Source: Verrucomicrobiota bacterium
GTDB lineage: Bacteria > Verrucomicrobiota > Verrucomicrobiia > Chthoniobacterales > UBA10450
Length of the DNA: 64,000 bases
Reading direction: 5' to 3'
Assembly (NCBI GenBank): GCA_003218975.1
Contig: QHPD01000099.1
Location: forward strand, 1-64,000
The notes beneath the pieces were generated by a model that was given only the letters and a program-made list of their open reading frames with translations, was not told the DNA's origin and did no database searches. Below are positions 1 to 17,001 of this stretch, one piece after another; position 1 is the first letter of the stretch, and each line of letters starts with the position of its first letter. Both the position numbers and the translations under genes were made by a program.

Positions 1-704
1 AACGCGGCCCGCGCCTGATCGATCGTCATGCCGGGTTTCAAACGCCCGATCACGCGCAGAAAACCGCTCCCGCGCATCACTCGTTCATAGGAGATCCCGG
101 GAACCAGGTACGGCTTCGTTGTCCAGATCTCGGCATTCGGTCCGATCCAGGAGAACGGCAGGTTGGGCAATACCCCCACGATCGTGTGCGGGACGCCGTC
201 GAGCGTAATGCTGCGGCCGATCACATTAGCGTCGCCCCCCAAGCGTTTCTGCCAAAAATTTTCGGTCACCATCGCCATGTCGGCGGTCTCCTCTTCCTCC
301 GGCAAAAAATTGCGACCGCGGATCGGTTGGACGCCGAGGACATCGAAGTAGTTCGACGTCACTTTGCCGCCGAAAAGCTGAACGGCATCGCCCACTCCGG
401 TCAAAGTGAACGGAATGATGTTTTCGCCGGCGAACCCGTCGAAAATCTTTTGGGCCGCGCGGAAATGTTGAAAGCGCGGCACCGAGACCGCGAGTTCCAG
501 CAAATTGCGCTCCCGCGCATTCGAATACATGTGCACGACGCGCTCCGGCTGTTTGAACGGAAGGCCGCGCAAAAACAGATCGTTGATCAAACTGAAGATG
601 GCAGTGTTCAGCCCAATCCCGAGCGCGAGCGTGATTACAGCGAGAAAAGTAAATCCGGGCGATTTGCGAAGTTGGCGTAGAGCAAACTTTAGATCAGCGA
701 TCAT
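1..704 (-). CDS. MacB/ADOP-type ABC transporter permease, partial (runs off window start)
   Basis: Reverse-strand translation MIADLKFALRQLRKSPGFTFLAVITLALGIGLNTAIFSLIND... typical of MacB_PCD permeases; ATG overlaps upstream ATPase stop (ATGA at 701-704). Confidence 0.88.
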   Translation of the reverse strand, partial: MIADLKFALRQLRKSPGFTFLAVITLALGIGLNTAIFSLINDLFLRGLPFKQPERVVHMYSNARERNLLELAVSVPRFQHFRAAQKIFDGFAGENIIPFTLTGVGDAVQLFGGKVTSNYFDVLGVQPIRGRNFLPEEEETADMAMVTENFWQKRLGGDANVIGRSITLDGVPHTIVGVLPNLPFSWIGPNAEIWTTKPYLVPGISYERVMRGSGFLRVIGRLKPGMTIDQARAA

Positions 705-1375
705 TGGTCTCCTTTCACGATCCAGCCGTCGCGCAGCTGTACAACGCGTTTGCCGTAAGATGCGTTTCTTTCCGAGTGCGTGACCTGCACGATGGTCATG
801 CCTTCGTTATTTAACTTGCGAAACAGCTCCATGATCTCCTCGCCCTGACTAGAGTGCAGGTTTCCGGTCGGTTCATCTGCGAGCAGAAGTTTCGGTCGAG
901 CGATGATCGCCCGCGCGACGCCGACCAGCTGTTGTTGTCCGCCGGAAAGCTGATGCGGATATAAATCTTTTTTGCCGACGATTTGGAAACGGTCGAGCAT
1001 GTCGGCTACGAGTGCGGCGCGCTCGCTTGTCCTGTACCGGCGATACGACAGCGGTATATCGAGGTTCTCGTAAACCGTGAGATCATCGAGCAAATGATAC
1101 TGCTGAAAAACGAAACCGATCTGCTTGTTGCGCAATGTCGCTCGCTCTTTTGGTTTCAAATGGTGCGTTGCAGTTCCGTCGAGAAAGTATTCACCGGTCC
1201 AGCCGTGATCGTGCATTCCCAGAATGTGCAGCAACGTCGATTTGCCTGCGCCGGACGGACCCATGATCGAGACGAAGTCGCCTTCCTGAACCTCCAGATT
1301 GATCTCGCGCAGAACGTAAAAGAACTTTTCCTTCGCCAAAGGATAGCAGCGTTCGATGTGTTGAAGCTTAATCAT
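701..1375 (-). CDS. ABC transporter ATP-binding protein (LolD/MacB-like)
   Basis: Walker A GPSGAGKST, signature LSGGQQQ, Walker B LLLADEPTGNL. Confidence 0.95.
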   Translation of the reverse strand: MIKLQHIERCYPLAKEKFFYVLREINLEVQEGDFVSIMGPSGAGKSTLLHILGMHDHGWTGEYFLDGTATHHLKPKERATLRNKQIGFVFQQYHLLDDLTVYENLDIPLSYRRYRTSERAALVADMLDRFQIVGKKDLYPHQLSGGQQQLVGVARAIIARPKLLLADEPTGNLHSSQGEEIMELFRKLNNEGMTIVQVTHSERNASYGKRVVQLRDGWIVKGDQ

Positions 1376-1385
1376 ATCGGGGCTT

Positions 1386-3839
1386 TCATTCGTAACGCAG
1401 CGCGACCATTGGATCGACAGCCAGTGCCCGGCGCGCGGGCAGGAAACAGGCCACCAAGGCTATTGACACAAGCAACAGCGAAATCGAAACAAAGGTCGCC
1501 GGATCGGTTGCGTTCACCTCGAAGAGCAAACTCGCCAGCAACCGCGTAAGGCCCCACGCGGCAGTCAAACCAATCGCAATACCTAACAATGTTAGTTTTG
1601 CGCCCTGGCCGAGGATGAGTCGCAGCACGTGGATAGGCTGTGCGCCTAGTGCCACGCGAACTCCAATCTCGGTTGTTCGTTGCGAGACCGAATACGCCAT
1701 TACGCCGTAAAGTCCGAGCGCAGCGAGCAGCAGACCAGCCGCAGCCAGCACGCTCATCAAAATTGCACTGAACCGTTCGGTCACCAGAACGCGGGCGAGA
1801 TTTTGGTTCATTGTCATCACATCCGAAATCGGCTGATCGGGATCGACAGCACGAGTCGCTTCGCGTATCGCGGTTGTTACACTCGAAGGATCATCACTCG
1901 TTCGCACAACAAGGTTAACGGGAAAATTGTTTTCGAGCTGCGCGTAGGGCACGTACCACACCGGACGGTTGACCCGATAATTGAACAAATCTTCTTTCAC
2001 GTCCCTGATAACGCCAATTACCGTCATCCATGGAAAATCCTGACCAGGCCGGACTCGCTTAATTCGTTTGCCGAGCGGATCTTCTCCCGGCCACGCCTCA
2101 CGCGCTAATTGTTCGCTGATCACCACGACCGGCGGCTGGCCTGCGCGATCAGTCTCCTCGATCAATCTACCCTTTAGCAGAGTCACACCGAGCGTTTTCA
2201 AATAATCCGGGCTGACCAGACGGTGTGATGTAATTGGAATATCGTTTGGGTTACGCGGCGACCGGCCTTCGACACTGAACCTGGCGTCGTAAGCAATCTC
2301 GCGCTCGAGTGGAATGTTTGTTGTGGTGCCAGCGGACACCACGCCAGGCAGATTTTTTAGCCGCTCAAGAACCTGATTAACAAATGCAACCCGCTGCCGA
2401 TGCTCGGAATATTTCGATTCCGGCAAAACCATTTTCAACGTGAGCAGATGATCCGGTCTGAATCCGAGATCGACACGCTGCAAGCGATTGAAACTGCGAA
2501 CGATCAATCCGCCGCCGACTAACAACGTCATCGCCACGGCGATTTCCGCGACGATCAGGATGTTGAGCCAACCATGGCCGGGCGCGCTCGCGCTGCGTTG
2601 GTCGCCTTGTCTGAGCGACGGCATCACTTCACGTTCACCGGTGCCTTTCAAGGCCGGGACCAATCCGAAGATCACTCCAGTGGCGAGTGTGACGCAGAAC
2701 GCGAAAATCAAAACGCGATTGTCGATCCTGAATTCGTGAAAGAATCCGGCGAGCGAAACACCCTGCACTGGATTGATCACTGCAAGCAGCGGAAGGATCC
2801 AATGGGCAAGCAACAAACCGCCCGCGCCGCCGAGCAATGCGAGCAACATGCTCTCGGTGAGAAGTTGTCGCACCAAACGCGATCGACTCGCGCCAAGAGC
2901 GCGCCGCAATGCCAGCTCGCGCGTACGCGCAATGCCACGCGCGAGCTGAAGGTTCGCGACGTTCGCGCAGCAGATTAGCAAGAGGAAGGCGACTCCGCCC
3001 GTTAGCGCGACAAGCGCTTTGTTTACTCGTCCCGCATAATCACCAAGCAACGCCTGCCGCAGCCAAAGCAATTTAACTGTCCAGCCGCGGCGGAACTGCG
3101 GGAATTCCTGCTCTAATTGGCGCGCGATGGATTTTGCTTCTGCATCTGCCTGTTTGAGGCTGATTCCAAGACGAAGCCTGGCTACGACTTCGCAGCTGGG
3201 GACAGCGCGCTGCGTCAGCGGCAGGCTAGCGATGTTGATTTGCATCGGTACCCAGATCGCGGCCGCCGCGGGCACATCAAATCCTGGCGGCATGACGCCG
3301 ATGATAGTGTAGGTACGAGCTTCGAGGTTCAGCGTTTCACCAATAATGTCCGCTTTTCCGCCAAAATGTTTTTGCCACAAACTGTGACTAATCAAGGCGA
3401 CTGCCGCGCCGCCTGGCCGGTCGTCCTCGGCGGTGAAACTGCGGCCGAGCACCGGTTTCACGCCGAGTGTGGTCAAGTAATCGGCCATGATGGAGGCGCC
3501 GCGAATGCGCTCAGGTTCACCGCGTCCGATCAAATTAAATGAGCGCTGCCTCGCAGCGCCGATGCTTTCGAAGGAATGACTTCGTTCCTGATAAGCTTGC
3601 AATTCGAGCAAAGATGATTCGTACGGATCAAAGCCTTCGCGCAGCGCCTGGCTGAGAACTAGCTGGTCCAAATTTTTCAACGGCAACGGGCGCAGTAACA
3701 GCGTATTGACCGCACTAAAAACCGCGGTGTTCGCGCCGATGCTTAGGGCGAGCGCTGCTACAGCGATGCCGGTGTAAGTAGGAGACTTCAGCAAAATCCG
3801 TGCGCCGTAGCGGACATCTTGCCAGAGTTCTTCAAACAT
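1386..3839 (-). CDS. ADOP-family ABC transporter permease (MacB_PCD + two FtsX domains)
   Basis: 817 aa; MFEELWQDVRYGARILLKSPTYTGIAVAALALSIGANTAVFS; C-terminal FtsX region with RRALAVDPMVALRYE. Confidence 0.93.
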   Translation of the reverse strand: MFEELWQDVRYGARILLKSPTYTGIAVAALALSIGANTAVFSAVNTLLLRPLPLKNLDQLVLSQALREGFDPYESSLLELQAYQERSHSFESIGAARQRSFNLIGRGEPERIRGASIMADYLTTLGVKPVLGRSFTAEDDRPGGAAVALISHSLWQKHFGGKADIIGETLNLEARTYTIIGVMPPGFDVPAAAAIWVPMQINIASLPLTQRAVPSCEVVARLRLGISLKQADAEAKSIARQLEQEFPQFRRGWTVKLLWLRQALLGDYAGRVNKALVALTGGVAFLLLICCANVANLQLARGIARTRELALRRALGASRSRLVRQLLTESMLLALLGGAGGLLLAHWILPLLAVINPVQGVSLAGFFHEFRIDNRVLIFAFCVTLATGVIFGLVPALKGTGEREVMPSLRQGDQRSASAPGHGWLNILIVAEIAVAMTLLVGGGLIVRSFNRLQRVDLGFRPDHLLTLKMVLPESKYSEHRQRVAFVNQVLERLKNLPGVVSAGTTTNIPLEREIAYDARFSVEGRSPRNPNDIPITSHRLVSPDYLKTLGVTLLKGRLIEETDRAGQPPVVVISEQLAREAWPGEDPLGKRIKRVRPGQDFPWMTVIGVIRDVKEDLFNYRVNRPVWYVPYAQLENNFPVNLVVRTSDDPSSVTTAIREATRAVDPDQPISDVMTMNQNLARVLVTERFSAILMSVLAAAGLLLAALGLYGVMAYSVSQRTTEIGVRVALGAQPIHVLRLILGQGAKLTLLGIAIGLTAAWGLTRLLASLLFEVNATDPATFVSISLLLVSIALVACFLPARRALAVDPMVALRYE

Positions 3840-3896: not shown

Positions 3897-6207
3897 TCAC
3901 TGGTCATGTAAGGCCCGGACTGGATCAATGCGTGTCGCGCGCCAGGCAGGCAAAAAACACGCAGCAAAGGATACCATCGTGATCACAACGACTGCCGATC
4001 CAAACGCCACGGGATCGCGTGGACTGACCTGGTAAAGCAAATTGCCCATCAAACGTGTCAGCAATACCGCAGCGATTGCGCCGATGACGATTCCGGCCGT
4101 CGTTAGCCGCAGGCCGCGCAAAGCAACGAGTCGCAACAGATCGCGTGTGCCGGCGCCGAGTGCCATTCGTAAACCAAGCTCTCTCGTTCCCTGCGAAACC
4201 GAATAGGACATTACCGCATACAATCCAATAGCGGCTAGGAACAGCGCCATCCCCCCAAAAAGTGCGACGAGCGTAACCGCTAGCCGCTGACTATAACTCA
4301 TTCGGTCGACCTGCTCCTGCAACCGGTAAGCGACTCCCGGCGCAAGGGTCGGATCAAGCGCGTGAACCTCGCGCGCGAGCGAATTCATGATCGCACCGGG
4401 CGTTTCCCGCGTGCGGATTAGCAAACTGTTTCGCACACCAACAAAATTTTGTCGCAGTGGCACGTAAAGGAACGGCGTTGGCGCCTCAATTTTCGTGCGG
4501 TAATTCGCATTTTTCGCGATCCCAATGATCTGCAACCAACGATCTCTGACCTTAAGTCGCTGACCGAGCGCATTCTTCCCCAGCCAATATTTCGCAGCCA
4601 TCGTTTCGTTGATAATCGCTACCGGCGGCGCGTTCTCATCGTCCGTGCGAATAAATGCGCGGCCGGAACACGCGAGTAAGCGCGGCCGATTCAACGCCGG
4701 GCAGTGTCCGAACCCGATCTAACAATTGGGTGTGAAAAATCTTGGCACGCTCGAGATTGTAGCCCCCCGAAAACAAATCTACTCCCGAAACGATCACATC
4801 TGTCGAGAAACCGGGACTGGCGTTTCGCATTTTGTTCAAGCTTTGCAAAAGCAACCCGGTGCCGGCGAGTAATACGAAGCTGAGTGATACTTGCACGAGC
4901 ACGAGCGCAGAACGTAATCGCGAGCGACTGCTTCCGCTAAGGACACCGCCGCCTTCGGTTTTCAGAGCGCTGGAAAGATCGACGTGGCTGGCGTGAATCG
5001 CGGGCACGAGCGCAAATAACAGAGTCGACCCGATACAAATTCCGGCGCTGACCGCGAGCACTCGCCAATCGATTTGACCCGGATAGTCGATTACGATCCC
5101 TGCCGCGGGTGAAGGGAATGCGAACACGAGTGCGTTGCGACACCAACACGCCACCGCAATTCCGCCGGCGGCTGCGATCAGCGAAAGCAACAATCCTTCG
5201 GTCAAAAGTTGCTTCACCAGACGGCGTCGACCGGCGCCAAGGGCGAGTCGCATCGTCATCTCGTGGCGGCGGAGCAAAGACCGCGCGAGCAAAAGATTGC
5301 TCACGTTCGCGCACGCGATGAGCAACACCAAAAACACGACCGCCATCGTGATCGCGAGCGTCGGCGACATATTTCCAGCGCCATTGAACGGCGTTTTCCA
5401 CAACGGGAAGAGCTGGACTTCGTGGCCGCGATTCGTATCAGGAAAATCGTTTTCCAACCGTTGCGCGATCGAGTTCAGCTCGGCCTGCGCCTGCTGACGC
5501 ATAACGCCAGGTTTGAGAAATGCGTAGCCTTCGATCCAACGCGCCCCACGGTTTTCCAATTTGTAACCGGTCGAGTCGAATGTCTCCTGCATCGACGTCG
5601 GCACCCAAAAGCTGAACGAGTAACCGATAAAGGTGCCGTGAAACTTTTCCGGTGCGACGCCAACGATCGTGTGCTGCACGCCATTGAGATATTGCGTCTT
5701 GCCGATAATCTCCGGGTCGGACTTGTAACGATCTCTCCAGGTTCGATAACTGATCACGACCACCGGATGCGCATTGCGTCCGGTTCCTTCTTCGGATCTG
5801 AATCCGCGGCCTAGAATTGGCCGCACGCCGAGTGCGTCGAAATAATTCGCCGTAACAATTCCCACCGATGCGATTTCGGCCCGATCGCCAACGCTCAAAG
5901 ACGTCCCCGTGATTTTATCGACAATGAACGATTCAAACAGCGTCGCGTTTTTTTCGAAATCGACAAAGTCAGGATAGGAAAGCCCGTTATGCCCTTCCAC
6001 CCCGCGTGTCGTGCCCACAAGCGCAAACATCCGGTCCTGGTGTGACACCAGTGGATAGGGCCGTATCAGAATTCCTTCGATCCAACTGAACACGGCCGCA
6101 TTCGAACCGATCCCGAGTGTGAGGCAAAGCAATGCGAGAACGGTAAAGCCGGGACTGCGCCGAAGCATTCGGAAGCCGAAGCGAAGATCTTGCAAAAGCG
6201 TTTGCAT
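3897..6207 (-). pseudogene. ADOP-family ABC permease interrupted by an out-of-frame internal deletion (two ORFs 4636-6207 and 3897-4694)
   Basis: 523-aa N-terminal part ends ...LPGVESAALTRVFRPRIYSHGR*; the other frame resumes ...GRAFIRTDDENAPPVAIINETMAAKYW, skipping the ~45 residues normally between these motifs. Confidence 0.8.
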
Positions 6208-6218
6208 TTACCACTTCC

Positions 6219-6959
6219 TTAGGCCGCGATCCTGTCTTCAACCACTCGGCCATCAAATAAATGCACTGTGCGATCGGCGTGCTGCGCGAAACGCTCGTCA
6301 TGCGTAACCATGCAGATAGTCGCGCCGACGGCGTGCAATTCTTTCAAGAGTTCCATAACCGCCTCGCCATTGCGTGAATCGAGATTTCCGGTTGGCTCGT
6401 CTGCCAGCAAAATAGCCGGCCTGCCAGCAAGCGCGCGCGCGACTGCGACGCGCTGCTGTTGGCCACCTGACAGCTGGCTCGGTAAATGTTTTGCCCGATG
6501 TGCCATGCCGACGCGTTCGAGTGCTTCGGTGACAAACGATTTGCGTTCACCCGCGCCCATCCCGCGGTAGGTCAGCGGCAACTCCACGTTCTCAAATACT
6601 GTGAGATCGCCGATCAAATTGAAACTTTGGAAGATGAAACCGATTTCGCGATTGCGAATCCGTGCACGATCCGCAAAGGAAAGATTGGCGACTTCGTTTT
6701 CTTTCAGGGAATAGCTGCCTTCCGAAGGAGTATCGAGCAGGCCGAGAATCGATAGCAGCGTCGTCTTGCCGCAACCTGACGGTCCCGCAATTGAAACATA
6801 CTCGCCGACACGAATGTCCAGGTGAATCCCGGAGAGCGCATGCGTTTCCACTTCATCGGTGAGAAAGACTTTCGTTACCCCACTCAATCGTATCAAAGGA
6901 CTTGAGCCGTTTGTCATAGGAGGTTGCATTGATTCAGTAGCAGTTGATGTTGAATTCAT
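6219..6959 (-). CDS. ABC transporter ATP-binding protein (MacB/LolD-like)
   Basis: GPSGCGKTT, LSGGQQQRVAVARAL, ILLADEPTGNLD. Confidence 0.95.
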   Translation of the reverse strand: MNSTSTATESMQPPMTNGSSPLIRLSGVTKVFLTDEVETHALSGIHLDIRVGEYVSIAGPSGCGKTTLLSILGLLDTPSEGSYSLKENEVANLSFADRARIRNREIGFIFQSFNLIGDLTVFENVELPLTYRGMGAGERKSFVTEALERVGMAHRAKHLPSQLSGGQQQRVAVARALAGRPAILLADEPTGNLDSRNGEAVMELLKELHAVGATICMVTHDERFAQHADRTVHLFDGRVVEDRIAA

Positions 6960-6975: not shown

Positions 6976-8358
6976 CTAGTTGAGGCGAATGCGTTCGTGC
7001 GCGTCCCACGCGCTGGTATCGGAGAGAATCACCTGATCTCCCGGTTCAAGGCCGTTTAGGATCTCAATCGTATTGACCGAGCTCTTGCCCAGTTTCACCG
7101 GTGTGCGGACAGCATTCGAGGTGCCGTTGACTAGTTTGAACATTCCTACGGTATTGTTCTCCTGGCCAAACGCTGGACGGCCGACATAAACCACATTGTC
7201 GAGACGCTCGAGCTCGATTGTTCCATCGACACTGAGGTCCGGCCGCGCGCCTTTGGGCAGCGCCTCATCGACCGCAACATCGACAGTGACAGTTCCCTGT
7301 TCGACTGCCGGATCGACGCGCGTGACGTGGCCTTTCACCGTGCCGTTCCGTGTATCGATCACCGCTTGTTGCTTAATCTGAATATCTTTCGCCTGCGTCT
7401 CCGCGATTTTGACTTGGGCTTTCAACTTCGTCGGGTCTGCGACGCGCGCCAAGTTGTCACCGACCTTCACGCGCTGTCCGATCTGAACGGGTAATTGTTG
7501 CAGGACGCCAGACATTCCAGCGCGCACGTGCAACGCTTCGACTTGATCCGCTTTTAACTTGGCAAGCTGCTTGGCTTGATCGACTGCCGCCTGTTTGGAC
7601 GCCAGCTGCGGATCAATGGAGTCATGCGCAAAATTGAGACGTTTCTCTTCGATCTCATTCCGGTTCGCCAATTCCGCCTCTTTCACTTTTGAGGTCTTGT
7701 ATTGGAGTTCGGCGATCAAGCCGTTCTTGGCTAACTGATCGTTGGTTTCGCGTTCCATTTTCGCCTGTTGGTAATCAGACTTTGCTTTCGCGGTAGTTGC
7801 CTCCTGATCGAGAAGCTCGCGCTGTAGGGTCGCCCTCAAGGTAGTTAATTCCGCCTCTGCGGCTGTCGCTTGCAGCTCGGCGTCGTGAGCGGCTTGCTCC
7901 AGCTCGGGACTGCTCAATTCCAAAATGACAGAGTCCGGTTCAACGTGCGTACCGGGCCAAATAATTATTTTTTCCACGCGACCTTCCGCGTTTACCGAAA
8001 TCCAGCGAATGTCTTCAGGAACGAGCGTCCCAAGACCGCGCACCTGTCGCACCATCGGTCCGCGTTTAACTGTGTCGATCCAAACCGTGGAGCGATCCAC
8101 ACTCGGCACTGCTGGTTTCAACCGTGAGATGGCAATCGTCGCCAGAATCAATCCAAGGGCAGACGCAGCAATGATAATGACGCGGCGCTTGCGCTTCTTT
8201 GCTGCAACCCCCGCGCGCGGCACATCCATCGACGAGAGAGTCGGTGTGAATCCAGCCGGCCGCACGATTGTCTCTTCTTTTAACTTTCGCTGAGGAGTCA
8301 CAGTTGAATCACGGCTGACCGAAGGCCCGGCAAAGTTCGGCAACGGCATATGCTGCAC
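6976..8358 (-). CDS. Efflux periplasmic adaptor (HlyD/MacA-like membrane fusion protein)
   Basis: N-terminal TM, coiled-coil hairpin, lipoyl-like halves (MSGVLQQLPVQIGQRVKVGDNLARV); start may be internal (MDVPRAG...). Confidence 0.9.
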   Translation of the reverse strand: MQHMPLPNFAGPSVSRDSTVTPQRKLKEETIVRPAGFTPTLSSMDVPRAGVAAKKRKRRVIIIAASALGLILATIAISRLKPAVPSVDRSTVWIDTVKRGPMVRQVRGLGTLVPEDIRWISVNAEGRVEKIIIWPGTHVEPDSVILELSSPELEQAAHDAELQATAAEAELTTLRATLQRELLDQEATTAKAKSDYQQAKMERETNDQLAKNGLIAELQYKTSKVKEAELANRNEIEEKRLNFAHDSIDPQLASKQAAVDQAKQLAKLKADQVEALHVRAGMSGVLQQLPVQIGQRVKVGDNLARVADPTKLKAQVKIAETQAKDIQIKQQAVIDTRNGTVKGHVTRVDPAVEQGTVTVDVAVDEALPKGARPDLSVDGTIELERLDNVVYVGRPAFGQENNTVGMFKLVNGTSNAVRTPVKLGKSSVNTIEILNGLEPGDQVILSDTSAWDAHERIRLN

Positions 8359-8587
8359 TCACCAATGGTATGGCCGCGGTGATCACTAGCATTGCGAACA
8401 AAATCGCTTCGCCGACGAAATCGTGCCGCGCTTCCCTTTGAAAGTATTGATGACTGATATTGCGGAAGGATGGCGTCAGCGGTTTTGCGCAGTGGCTACG
8501 ATAACCACTAAGGGTGACCGGATGGTAATTGCAGTCGGTAAGGGGGAACCTCGTGTGATTGCGAACTATAAAGGCCGTTGGTTTCAT
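8309..8587 (-). CDS. Possible small single-TM membrane protein
   Basis: C-terminal VGEAILFAMLVITAAIPLVSAAYAVAELCRAFGQP hydrophobic segment; between sigma-54 promoter and MFP gene; overlaps MFP start; N-terminus doubtful. Confidence 0.35.
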   Translation of the reverse strand: MKPTAFIVRNHTRFPLTDCNYHPVTLSGYRSHCAKPLTPSFRNISHQYFQREARHDFVGEAILFAMLVITAAIPLVSAAYAVAELCRAFGQP

Positions 8588-8650: not shown

Positions 8651-8667
8651 TTGCAATGTTCGTGCCA
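8651..8667 (-). promoter_or_regulatory. Sigma-54 (-24/-12) promoter for the efflux operon
   Basis: Reverse complement TGGCACGAACATTGCAA (preceded by T) matches YTGGCACGN4TTGCW at all defined positions; oriented toward MFP/ABC genes, adjacent to an NtrC-type regulator. Confidence 0.8.
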
Positions 8668-8691
8668 ACAGCGGCAAAGAAATCACATCGC

Positions 8692-8784
8692 GTGCCCGAT
8701 CAGGCACTTACGTTTGGTGGCCGAAAAACGGCGGAAGTCCGATTACTCCGATTCTGGGATTTCGGCGTCCCGATTTCGGGACGC
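8692..8784. promoter_or_regulatory. Candidate activator-binding palindromes upstream of the sigma-54 promoter
   Basis: gtgcccgatcaggcac (8692-8707, near-palindrome) and GCGTCCCGA-TT-TCGGGACGC (8765-8784, perfect 9-bp arms). Confidence 0.45.
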
Positions 8785-8801: not shown

Positions 8802-10136
8802 TCAGAATGGAAGTTGCAGCAATGCTTCTGCGCCTTTGCCGCCGCGTCGGTTCATTACCACCAACGAACCTCCGTGCGCTTCCGCAATTTGACGGCTCAG
8901 CGGCAGACCAATCCCAGAGCCCTCGGGCTTTGTGGTGAAAAATGGCACGAACAAATTCGCCGTGTTCATGATTCCGGGTCCTTCGTCCTGAACAAAAATC
9001 TCAACCGAATCTTCTTTCTCTCGCCAGCCGATTGCGACGTTTCCGTGTGTCTCAAGCGCAGCATCAACAGCATTGCGCACCAAGTTAATCAACAACTGTT
9101 CGAGCTGTGCCGCGTCGACATGAATCTTTCTCTTCGGGCCGGCCATGACCTTGACGTTCAACCTTGGTTCCAAATCCACGACACGCTGCACAAGTTCAGC
9201 AAGATCGACATCTTGTTTTTGAGGCGGCGGAAGCTTTGTCAGGCGCGTGTAAGCCTGTAGAAAGCGACTGAGCGAATCGGCGCGGGATGCAATAGAACTC
9301 AAGCCAGTACGCGCATCGTCCTTCCAATCTGCTGGAGGCGGATCGCGGCGTAGCAATGATTCGAGACTGGCGGCAAGCGACTTGATGGGCGCAAGTGAGT
9401 TATTCATTTCGTGACCGAGCACGCGCACCAATCGCTGCCAGGCGCGGCGTTCTTCTTCGCGCAGCGTGCGACTGAGATCCGTCAGCACGAGCAAGTCGTG
9501 CGGTAAACCCTGTTCACGAAACGTGCTGCGACGAATGCCCCATCGACCGGAACCCCCAGGAAAGCTGAGCGTAAGCGGTTCATCCTGGTCGGCATCGTAA
9601 CAGGGTTCGAGCCCAAGTTCCTTTGCCGTTTTGCCAAGTAATTTGTCCATTGGCTGACCGAGCAACGCTTCGCCGGCGCGATTGACGAGACGCAAACGCC
9701 GTTCTGGATCGAAAGTGAAAACCGCGACATCGATTTCCCCCATGATCGTGCGCAAAAGCGCCGTCGCTTCAAAGGCGCCGAGGCGTTGCCGACGCAACGT
9801 TTCGCCAAGCGAGTTGATTTCCAGCAGAACCTCCCCCAGTGCATTGTCGCCACCGGCGCCCCGCGCCCGGATTGAGTAATCACCTTCGCGTAATGCGGCG
9901 AGCAGATTGGACATTGTTTGCAACGGATGAACGATGTGCTCGCGCGCGCTGGAGATGAATCCAATGAAGCATGCAACGATCAGGATCGTTAGCGTCCACT
10001 GCACTTTCGCGCTGTAATCGCCGAACCAAAGAAGGGCGAGCGCAACAACAATCGCGGGAGCAGCCGCGCCAAGCGTCAGCCAGGTTAGTTTGCTTTCGTG
10101 GGACAGCCGGTAGCGACTTTTCGGTACCCGATTCAT
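8802..10136 (-). CDS. Sensor histidine kinase, NtrY-like (HAMP, PAS, HisKA, HATPase)
   Basis: VLGHEMNNSLAPIKSLAASL H-box; DEGPGI and GSGIGLPLSRQIAEAHGG ATPase motifs. Confidence 0.92.
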   Translation of the reverse strand: MNRVPKSRYRLSHESKLTWLTLGAAAPAIVVALALLWFGDYSAKVQWTLTILIVACFIGFISSAREHIVHPLQTMSNLLAALREGDYSIRARGAGGDNALGEVLLEINSLGETLRRQRLGAFEATALLRTIMGEIDVAVFTFDPERRLRLVNRAGEALLGQPMDKLLGKTAKELGLEPCYDADQDEPLTLSFPGGSGRWGIRRSTFREQGLPHDLLVLTDLSRTLREEERRAWQRLVRVLGHEMNNSLAPIKSLAASLESLLRRDPPPADWKDDARTGLSSIASRADSLSRFLQAYTRLTKLPPPQKQDVDLAELVQRVVDLEPRLNVKVMAGPKRKIHVDAAQLEQLLINLVRNAVDAALETHGNVAIGWREKEDSVEIFVQDEGPGIMNTANLFVPFFTTKPEGSGIGLPLSRQIAEAHGGSLVVMNRRGGKGAEALLQLPF

Positions 10137-13388: not shown

Positions 13389-14080
13389 CAGGGCCGCGGC
13401 GGCATCAGCGCTGCGCCGTAAATCGGCGTGAGCGTTTGACCTTGAGCGCCAACCTCGGTCGCTTCAAAAGCGCGGCCGAATTCGTTTTCAGTGCCATAGC
13501 CTTTCGCGGAAATCGTCGCGCCTGTTTGCAGCAGCGCACTGAATTGCGTGCTTACGTGCGGCGCGATGCGCACGATCATGCCGTCGTCCAGCACCGCGCC
13601 CTCGATCTCGCCTCGCGGCGCATGCAGCACGACGCGAATTTTTTCGTCCGCCTGCATCGGTTTCAGATTTACGCCCTGCAAATCGGGCGGTGGTGGCGGC
13701 TGCATCGGACGCGCTTCGTTCAGCGATTGCCCGCTCGAGTTGGTGATCGTAAATGCGGTGAACACCGGCGACACTTCACGCACGCCTTGCGCAGTGATGC
13801 GCTCGTTAGGCTTTACCGAGCGTGTGAGATCGGCGCTCATGTGCGGCGGGAATTTCACCTGTGAGCCGTCGGCCAGCAGGAGGCCGTCCACTTCACCGCG
13901 CGGATTGAGCAAATACATGCTCACGGTGCCGGCGATTTGCTCCGTCGGAGGGACCGGCTGCGTGGCGGGCGTCGGCGGTACTGGTTGGGCAAGCGAAATC
14001 GCCGCTCCAACAACAAAACTCATGAGTATGATTGGAATGAGATGTTTCGTTTTCATGTCCATCGTTATTTCAACTTCCAT
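13388..14080 (-). CDS. Secreted hypothetical protein with two tandem ~60-aa homologous domains
   Basis: Signal peptide; PRGEVDGLLLADGSQVKFPPHMS...ITAQGV and PRGEIEGAVLDDGMIVRIAPHVS...ISAKGYG are internal paralogues. Confidence 0.75.
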   Translation of the reverse strand: MEVEITMDMKTKHLIPIILMSFVVGAAISLAQPVPPTPATQPVPPTEQIAGTVSMYLLNPRGEVDGLLLADGSQVKFPPHMSADLTRSVKPNERITAQGVREVSPVFTAFTITNSSGQSLNEARPMQPPPPPDLQGVNLKPMQADEKIRVVLHAPRGEIEGAVLDDGMIVRIAPHVSTQFSALLQTGATISAKGYGTENEFGRAFEATEVGAQGQTLTPIYGAALMPPRP

Positions 14081-14243
14081 GCCAGCGCCGAATGGCGTGC
14101 AAACCCCTGGAAATCAGCCCGCGAAACTGATCGAGTTTTTTGAAAACGTCCCCGAAGAAGACAACTCGCGTCCGGAATGCGGACAAGCGTGGCAGCGCAG
14201 TCCCGGGTAGCGCACGCGTCCCGTTTTCGCGGACACGCGGGAA

Positions 14244-15572
14244 TTACAGACCGTGCTCTTTTAGTTTCGTATAGAGAAATTGCCGGCGGATGCCGAGACG
14301 CCGCGCGGCTTCGGCGCGGTTGTTGCCGGTTTTGCGCAATGCTTTTTGCAACAGCATTTTTTCCAATCGCGCCGTCGCAGCCGGCAGATCGAGAGCAAGC
14401 AACTCGTCGATTGAGTCCCCCGGGGTCAGCGCGGTTTCAAAATCTAAATCGCCGTGATCGATCGCCACGCCGCGGACAGTGAGGCTCAGACTCCGCATCA
14501 AGTTTTCCAACTCGCGCACGTTGCCCGGCCAAGTGTGCTCAAGCAACGATTTCGCCGCTGCGGTGCTTAATTTCTTCGGCGCATCCGGCAAGGCGCGACG
14601 CAAAAAATGTTCGGCCAAAAGCAAAATGTCCGAGCCGCGCTCGCGCAGCGGCGGCAGCTCAATGCGCAAGACGTTGAGCCGGTAGAAGAGGTCTTCGCGA
14701 AATTTTTCCTCGCGTACGAGCGCCGCAAGATCGTGGCGCGTCGCGGCGATCACGCGAACATCGACATGTTGCACGGAGCTGCCCCCAACCGGCGTGATTG
14801 CGCGGTCCTGCAACGCGCGCAACATTTTCGCCTGCATCGCCGACGTCATGTCGCCAATCTCGTCAAGAAAAAGCGTGCCGCCGTCGGCCTCACGAAATCG
14901 CCCGGCGCGCGCCTGTAATGCGCCGGTGAATGCGCCGCGCACATGACCGAACAATTCGCTCTCGAGCAATTCGGCTGGAATCGCCGCGCAGTTCACGGCG
15001 ACGAAGGGACGCCGTGCGCGCTCACTGTGACAATGGACGGCGCGAGCCACGAGTTCTTTTCCAGTGCCCGTTTCGCCGAGGACAAGCACGGTCGCATCGC
15101 TCGAAGCGGCGAGGCCGATGAGCTTTTGCACTTCGCGCATCGGCAGGCTCGAGCCGATAAGCTCTTCCGCGCTGGAAATATCGATCTTTCCGGCCGCGAT
15201 CGTTGGCGGATGAGTGAGCGCACGCGCGAGCACGCCGCGAATGTCATCGCGGCCAATCGGCTTCGTCAGATGGTCGAACGCGCCGAGTTTCATCGCCTCG
15301 ATGGTGTTGGCACTATCGGCGAACGCGGTGAGAATCACGACCGGCGTGGATGCGCGATCGGGATGCGATTTAAGCGCGCGGAGCACTTCAAGTCCGTGCA
15401 TTCCGCGCAAGCGCAGATCGAGAAAAACCAGCGCGGCCCCGATTTCATCGAAGCGCGCAAGGGCGTCTTCGCCCGATGGCGCAATCGTCACCTCGTAGCC
15501 AAAATCGCGCACCGCCTCTGCGAGGCTCGATGCGAAGCCAGCGTCGTCTTCAACGATCAGGATTTTAGACAT
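14244..15572 (-). CDS. Sigma-54-dependent response regulator (NtrC family)
   Basis: REC; GETGTGKE; SELFGHVRGAFTGA; HTH_8 NRAEAARRLGIRRQFLYTKLKEHGL. Confidence 0.95.
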   Translation of the reverse strand: MSKILIVEDDAGFASSLAEAVRDFGYEVTIAPSGEDALARFDEIGAALVFLDLRLRGMHGLEVLRALKSHPDRASTPVVILTAFADSANTIEAMKLGAFDHLTKPIGRDDIRGVLARALTHPPTIAAGKIDISSAEELIGSSLPMREVQKLIGLAASSDATVLVLGETGTGKELVARAVHCHSERARRPFVAVNCAAIPAELLESELFGHVRGAFTGALQARAGRFREADGGTLFLDEIGDMTSAMQAKMLRALQDRAITPVGGSSVQHVDVRVIAATRHDLAALVREEKFREDLFYRLNVLRIELPPLRERGSDILLLAEHFLRRALPDAPKKLSTAAAKSLLEHTWPGNVRELENLMRSLSLTVRGVAIDHGDLDFETALTPGDSIDELLALDLPAATARLEKMLLQKALRKTGNNRAEAARRLGIRRQFLYTKLKEHGL

Positions 15573-17001
15573 GGCAATTCGATTTCAAAACGCGCGCCGT
15601 TTGTGCTTTCCACGCAGCGCAGCGTGCCGCCGTGCGCTTCGACAATTTCGCGCGCGATGCTGAGCCCGAGTCCGGCGCCGTTTCCGCGCGTGCTCACGAA
15701 TGGCTCAAATATTTTCTCGCGCTGCTCCGGCGCGATGCCGGGACCGGAGTCTTCGATAGCGATGCGGCAGCGCTCGTTGTGTAGCTGAATGTTAGCTTTG
15801 ATCCAGCCGCCGTGCGGCGTGTGTTGGACGGCGTTGAGCAAAAGATTGTCGAGCGCGCGAGACATGCTTTTTTCGTCGAAATTCCACTCGGCGTCCGGCG
15901 CGTCGCCGCTGAGCGCGAGATTTGTTTGCGCGGCTTGCTCGCGCACGTTGTCGATCCTCACTTGCAACCACGGCTTCAACGCAACCGGCGCACGGCGCAG
16001 CTCGCCGAGGCGCGTGATCGCGAGCAGGCGTTCGAGCAAATCGTCGAGCCGCTTGATTCCATCGAGTATTGCGCGCAACGCCGCGCTTTGCTGTTCGAGC
16101 GGCTTCACGAGTGCGTTCTCAGCTTTGAGTCGCATCGACGCGATCGGGTTGCGAATCTCATGCGCGATCTGCGCAGCCATCCGGCCCAAGGCGGCGGCGC
16201 GGTCGGCGCGCGCCAGTTTTTCAGAAAGCGCACGCGATTCGTCGCGTGCCGTTTTGAGCTTGGCATTGAGTTGATTTAGCGCGTTTACGATGCGATCGAG
16301 CTCGCGCTCACCGGTCGGTTTCAACGGCGGCAATTCCTCAGACGGTGTAGAGGCGATTGCCTTTTCGAGCGCGCGCACGCGAGCCGTCCAACTTTGCATA
16401 AACCACAGCACAGCCGCGCCTGAGAGCAGCGCGAAAATGAACAGCACGCCAAAGCCGAGCGTCAGTTTTTGATACGCTGCCGCCGCGCGAACGTGGGCGC
16501 GTCTCCTGCGCCGACCGGTTCTGCGCGCAGGATCAGCGTTTCCGTTTCGCTCGGAAATGACTGCGTTTGCGCGCTACCGCTGTTGAGCGCCGCCTGCGCG
16601 ACAGCGGCGATGCGCGCTGCTTCAGCTTCCGGCACATCTTTTTTCGGCACGCCCCCGCCAGCGTAACTGGGATATGCGTAGGCTAGGAAACCGTCGGGCG
16701 CACTCCAGAAGCCGCCTTCGACTTCCTTAAAATCTGCGAGCACGAGCTGAAGAATCAGCGTTAGCTCGCGGCGATGTTCGTCGGTCGCGAATGAACTGGG
16801 GGTTTGCGGAAAGCTAGCCTCGTAAGCGTTGAACCGCTGCGCCGTGAGGCTCGCCGCGCTTTCCACCTGCGTCTGCACGTGACCGATCTGCGCACCGACC
16901 CCCAACCGAAAGATCGACATCAACAAGAACGCAAGCGCGACGCAGATGACCACGATGAGCAGCCAGAGGCCAAGAAGCGACGCGCGGAGAGATGAAGTCA
17001 C
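15557..17001 (-). pseudogene. Sensor histidine kinase split by a 1-nt frameshift (ORFs 16462-17001 and 15557-16447)
   Basis: ORF1 ends ...GDAPTFARRQRIKN*; shifted frame reads AAAYQKLTLGFGVLFIFALLSGAAVLWFMQ into HAMP/HisKA/HATPase; break at ~16480-16489. Confidence 0.8.

Follow-up and report, generated by a model that had tools for sequence, protein, structure and literature searches.

Sigma-54 promoters of the NtrC type, such as glnAp2, combine a −24/−12 element with tandem dyadic sites at approximately −110 and −130, and their activators are response regulators with an AAA+ domain and a Fis-type helix-turn-helix. The locus described here is like NtrC/glnAp2 in its −24/−12 site, its tandem upstream dyads and the domain set of its regulator, but differs in having a GTCCC-N6-GGGAC operator, a site spacing of 22 bp, a GAFTDA loop and an export operon as its target. 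Targets of the same kind have been reported in a 2025 in silico study of the Opitutia regulon, where COG0577 permeases and COG1136 ATPases were enriched under predicted sigma-54 promoters (PMC12316311), and the general link is thus known as a statistical prediction. The sections of that study available to us call the link between sigma-54 and such genes the first evidence of its kind and do not name a regulator, an operator or a small protein for these ABC genes, and its main text contains no match for "UAS" or "Chthoniobact".

The window, i.e. the whole stretch of 64,000 nucleotides analysed, is contig C77 of a 3,061,121-base assembly (∼3.06 Mb) that is 97% complete, and its closest named relatives are soil MAGs of Verrucomicrobia, including Candidatus Udaeobacter and other Chthoniobacterales. 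The minus strand carries, in order, an NtrC-type regulator, a kinase, a gap, an adaptor, an ABC ATPase, two MacB/ADOP-type permeases and a second ATPase, with the promoter and the dyads lying inside the gap of 0.4–0.5 kb between the kinase and adaptor genes. The adaptor gene probably begins with a GTG at 8265. RpoN is encoded in the genome (Sigma54_DBD, 193.8 bits, contig C48). A second pair of an NtrC-type regulator (GAFTGA) and a kinase is found close by, at 14244–16447 on the minus strand.

Table 1. Position of the genes and predicted regulatory elements in the window.
Feature	Position	Strand	Remarks
NtrC-type response regulator / enhancer-binding protein, GAFTDA loop	10210-11556	-	Response_reg + Sigma54_activat + HTH_8
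Sensor histidine kinase	8802-10136	-	HATPase_c, PAS_8; N-terminal hydrophobic stretches
UAS1, GTCCC-N6-GGGAC dyad	8767-8782	-	centre ~-133; core of the 20-bp palindrome of the preliminary description
UAS2 ATCCCAGAATCGGAGT, degenerate copy of UAS1	8745-8760	-	22 bp downstream of UAS1; centre ~-111
Second palindrome of the preliminary description, gtgcccgatcaggcac / GTGCCTGATCGGGCAC	8692-8707	-	self-match to reverse complement 14/16; lineage-specific
Sigma-54 -24/-12 promoter TTGGCACGAACATTGCA	8652-8668	-	exact core consensus; predicted transcription start ~8641
Small ORF, 92 aa, first cistron 3' of promoter	8309-8587	-	conserved; one predicted membrane helix
Membrane-fusion (adaptor) protein	6976-8265	-	HlyD_3 / HlyD_D23; RND_mfp over cut-off
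ABC ATPase, LolD/MacB/DarD-like	6219-6959	-	ABC_tran
MacB/ADOP-type permease 1, frame interrupted	3897-6207	-	MacB_PCD + FtsX split over two frames
ADOP permease 2	1386-3839	-	TIGR03434 ADOP 914.9 bits vs cut-off 622.3
Second ABC ATPase	701-1375	-	ABC_tran

The GG and GC of TTGGCACGAACATTGCA are separated by 10 bp and all positions of YTGGCACG-N4-TTGCW are matched, so that the fit to the −24/−12 consensus at each defined position, as claimed in the preliminary description, is borne out, and the coordinates given there are correct. This is the sole exact occurrence of the pattern in the 3,061,121 bases, with 14 matches at one mismatch, where a letter count (∼24 bits) gives a chance expectation for the exact core of ∼0.4 per genome and ∼0.01 per window. 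Loose −24/−12 matches show no genome-wide excess over the reversed pattern, and a single match is consequently uninformative by itself. The exact core alone is suggestive of a sigma-54 promoter at 8652–8668, and the comparative evidence given below turns this into a strong prediction. A further candidate, at 14070–14084, has two mismatches and lies where a coding region begins, and was dropped.

The two dyads upstream are predicted enhancer sites, and their centres at approximately −133 and −111 are phased and fall in the range of 80–150 bp upstream. The larger palindrome, GCGTCCCGATTTCGGGACGC at 8765–8784, had been taken as perfect over 20 bp and is in fact imperfect, with nine pairs flanking a central T-T mismatch (18/20). 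The second palindrome originally listed, at 8692–8707, has no counterpart in other lineages among the relatives compared and does not represent a conserved site; gtgcccgatcaggcac was rejected as a second activator site because the relatives have no such dyad there, and the real second site is the unlisted copy at 8745–8760. In the stretch corresponding to 8692–8707, 25 of 72 non-redundant sequences from relatives have an IHF-like CAR-N4-TTR motif near −53, with ∼4 expected anywhere in that stretch from shuffled controls. The window has no CAR-N4-TTR motif in the stretch around 8692–8707, and its genome has one HU/IHF-family gene. These observations are only suggestive of an involvement of IHF between the dyads and the promoter in relatives.

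The comparison set consisted of 80 loci with the regulator, most of the Verrucomicrobia loci having the order regulator-kinase-adaptor-ATPase, and the composite was defined as a GTCCC-N6-GGGAC dyad with a downstream −24/−12 site. The first scans of the loci used an approximate sigma-54 weight matrix and showed the dyad between the kinase and adaptor genes in nearly all loci of this order, followed ∼114 bp on by a −24/−12 site. A plain pattern was used instead for the counts given below upstream of the adaptor, kinase, ABC and regulator genes. Of the loci, 53 extend 350 bp or more beyond the adaptor alignment on its upstream side, and 52 of these carry the composite ahead of the adaptor gene, with a dyad-promoter distance of 111–114 bp in 50. 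The same search found it once on the reverse strand. Dinucleotide shuffling, repeated for twenty rounds, produced no composite, and none lay ahead of the kinase or ABC genes. The proposal that the kinase/NtrC pair controls the efflux genes through RpoN is supported by these counts, the evidence being comparative throughout and the loci being largely draft MAGs that are related and hence non-independent; 72 composites are left when identity across the 95 bases nearest the promoter is kept below 60%.

Spacing across 121 distinct composites falls into classes that step by one helical turn, at 111–116 (94 composites), 122–125 (20) and 134 (3), with four outside. Moreover, 102 of the 121 have a second TCCC at an offset of 23 measured from where the first dyad begins, equivalent to the 22-bp site spacing, as compared with at most four at any other offset tested. 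As this second site was absent from the search criteria, it provides independent evidence for the tandem arrangement. A search of 388 genomes of the phylum located the composite at 71 places in 26 genomes, with a maximum of six per genome, and the reversed-pattern control gave four matches; the genome of the window has one copy only. The loci DNA examined for acidobacterial orthologues of the regulator, which have a similar recognition helix, contained no composite. In some genomes (G014, G018 and G024) another composite lies ∼1.5 kb upstream of the first, and in one locus (L063, 8225–9545) this second composite is located ahead of two other predicted exported-protein genes.

The preliminary description had raised the concern that the large palindrome might be a terminator of the kinase gene, in which case the promoter match would be coincidental. 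The palindrome begins 17 bp past the kinase stop codon and does fold as an RNA hairpin with an 8-bp stem (region z −1.9), but it has no T tract, is not called by a terminator scan, and has arms that are near-invariant in sequence among relatives. In seven loci where the kinase and adaptor genes are 2–4 kb apart (L084, L091, L098, L108, L110, L115 and L122), with two unrelated genes separating them in L091, the composite is found by the adaptor gene, such that the dyad is far from the kinase and at a fixed distance from the −24/−12 site. An element that keeps to the adaptor gene across such a split is not a kinase terminator; the concern is unsupported, and a terminator with a chance promoter match is extremely improbable.

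The regulator has receiver, AAA+ sigma-54 activation and Fis-type helix-turn-helix domains, placing it in the NtrC family, with GAFTDA in place of GAFTGA in the window and in all 80 of 80 orthologues. A survey counts GAFTDA among the variants expected to be compatible with activity (PMC4641369), while a study of VfmH, also a GAFTDA protein, did not detect sigma-54 and left the question open (PMC10714721). The constant association of the present regulator with near-consensus sigma-54 promoters argues that GAFTDA may work. Of 76 loci, 28 (mostly of Opitutales) have the composite ahead of the regulator gene as well, which suggests that the regulator may activate its own gene in those loci. No composite was found upstream of the regulator gene in the window and autoregulation was rejected there.

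It is also conceivable that the promoter depends on sigma-54 while a different enhancer-binding protein encoded in the genome occupies the dyads, the neighboring pair being a bystander or acting indirectly. Three or more other NtrC-type regulators are present in the genome (38–43% identity), and four genus-level genomes (G003, G007, G008 and G024) have the composite with no close regulator detected, possibly because their assemblies are incomplete. Against this, the order regulator-kinase-adaptor-ATPase is retained in most loci, and the same composite precedes the regulator gene itself in Opitutales. In addition, a comparison of 14 same-order genomes outside the genus showed the composite only where a close orthologue of the regulator is present: two of the three genomes whose regulator is 59% identical or more have it, and none of the other 11, the numbers being small. 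Control by a different activator is consequently considered unlikely, and the co-occurrence supports our inference that this regulator binds the dyads.

The preliminary description had the promoter pointing at the adaptor, ABC and permease genes; the direction is correct, and a small membrane-protein gene intervenes before the adaptor gene. This unannotated ORF lies 54 nt from the predicted transcription start, and ∼50 Chthoniobacterales sequences (tblastn; some loci fetched twice) have a relative of it in the same position, their alignment preserving an initial MKP and a Y-F-x2-E pattern. A dN/dS of 0.11–0.57 and the greatest variation at codon position three are observed among these relatives. 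The protein has one hydrophobic stretch, and the AlphaFold model (pTM 0.34) contains helices at residues 40–52 and 54–90, with confidence only for 54–90 and low confidence elsewhere. Searches of Pfam, NCBIfam and the PDB with the small protein returned nothing significant. Among 236 genomes of the class it was found only in the taxonomic family of the window, in two to five copies each; the genome of the window itself has four paralogues in other contexts with no sigma-54 site. These paralogues of the MKPT small membrane protein (G000, L237–L240) are at C104:5490–5798, C143:11534–11791, C122:24351–24620 and C40:30323–30475, and one of the four overlaps a lipoprotein-like gene. The adaptor gene in Opitutales begins soon after the promoter, and the small ORF is thus absent there. 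Tentatively, and with considerable doubt, the 92-residue protein may belong to an undescribed, lineage-specific family and may serve the sigma-54-controlled pump in an accessory or feedback role as one of its subunits, being the first product of the operon in Chthoniobacterales and missing from the equivalent operon in Opitutales.

The pump genes resemble MacA/MacB and the darobactin exporter DarBCD in combining an adaptor, a LolD-like ATPase and a MacB-fold permease, but the permeases in the window are of the ADOP type and the ATPase is a separate protein. Scores fall short of the equivalog cut-offs for MacA (33.5/342), DarC (95.6/450) and DarD (252.5/375), the last being the best NCBIfam match of the first ABC ATPase. 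By analogy, the pump may work like a MacAB or DarBCD exporter, with equivalog scores making it a member of neither. Permease 2 is over the curated cut-off of the ADOP family (TIGR03434). ADOP permeases are named as orphans, unlike those of the window, which adjoin ATPase and adaptor genes.

Permease 1 is split over two overlapping frames and has ∼95 bases fewer than the intact 815-residue gene in relatives (L096 and L245), as a result of either a deletion or an assembly fault. The shortfall could be read as a sign that the element is conserved while the operon degenerates in the lineage of the window. Nevertheless, the promoter, the dyads and the small ORF remain intact and constrained, permease 2 is likewise unbroken, and faulty assembly may account for the break, making degeneration of the operon very unlikely.

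Twenty composite places were read in a survey of the Opitutales regulon. Several lie ahead of adaptor-ATPase-permease operons, of ADOP-like permeases, of LolD-like ATPases, of the regulator-kinase pair or of outer-membrane efflux channels (TolC-type, OEP domain), and one lies ahead of a TonB-type gene. Four Opitutales loci (L204, L209, L215 and L216) have no evident target and a spacing ∼11 bp longer.

Taken together, these data suggest that the pair very probably turns on the neighboring export-pump operon through the sigma-54 promoter and the tandem activator sites. Points that speak against this reading are the GAFTDA loop, the four genus-level genomes with the composite and no close regulator detected, the lack of a composite ahead of the regulator gene in the window, and its absence from the acidobacterial loci DNA examined. 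The kinase would sense an envelope or drug-type signal and phosphorylate the NtrC-type regulator, an oligomer of which would bind UAS1 and UAS2. DNA looping would then carry the regulator to the closed complex of RpoN-RNA polymerase at 8652–8668, which would be opened through ATP hydrolysis. The transcript from ∼8641 is predicted to be one operon encoding the small membrane protein, the adaptor, the ATPase, the two ADOP-type permeases and the second ATPase, whose products would presumably function in efflux.

No paper was found joining Verrucomicrobia and enhancer-binding proteins, or sigma-54, MacB and NtrC. The proposed cognate pair, the fixed-spacing tandem operator, the possible self-activation and the channel targets in Opitutales, the extension to Chthoniobacterales and the small cistron appear new. 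Contig 99 of a Candidatus Udaeobacter MAG (JAALOD010000099.1) has been singled out for its MacA/MacB genes, in a report that Candidatus Udaeobacter profits from antibiotics (PMC7343977); the sections of that report at hand describe the resistance genes of the contig and do not cover their regulation. The same contig contains one of our composites (L066; dyad 3296–3311, promoter 3409–3425), and a literature search on the switching of Candidatus Udaeobacter pumps found nothing. Candidatus Udaeobacter ranks among the most abundant bacteria of soils, and its relatives form an abundant group there that is uncultured; for the pump, the present analysis proposes a specific regulator together with its operator and promoter. 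The proposed regulon would reach permease, ATPase and outer-membrane channel genes in culturable relatives of the Opitutales, and whether a GAFTDA activator can act with sigma-54 is a question for which the system provides a natural test.
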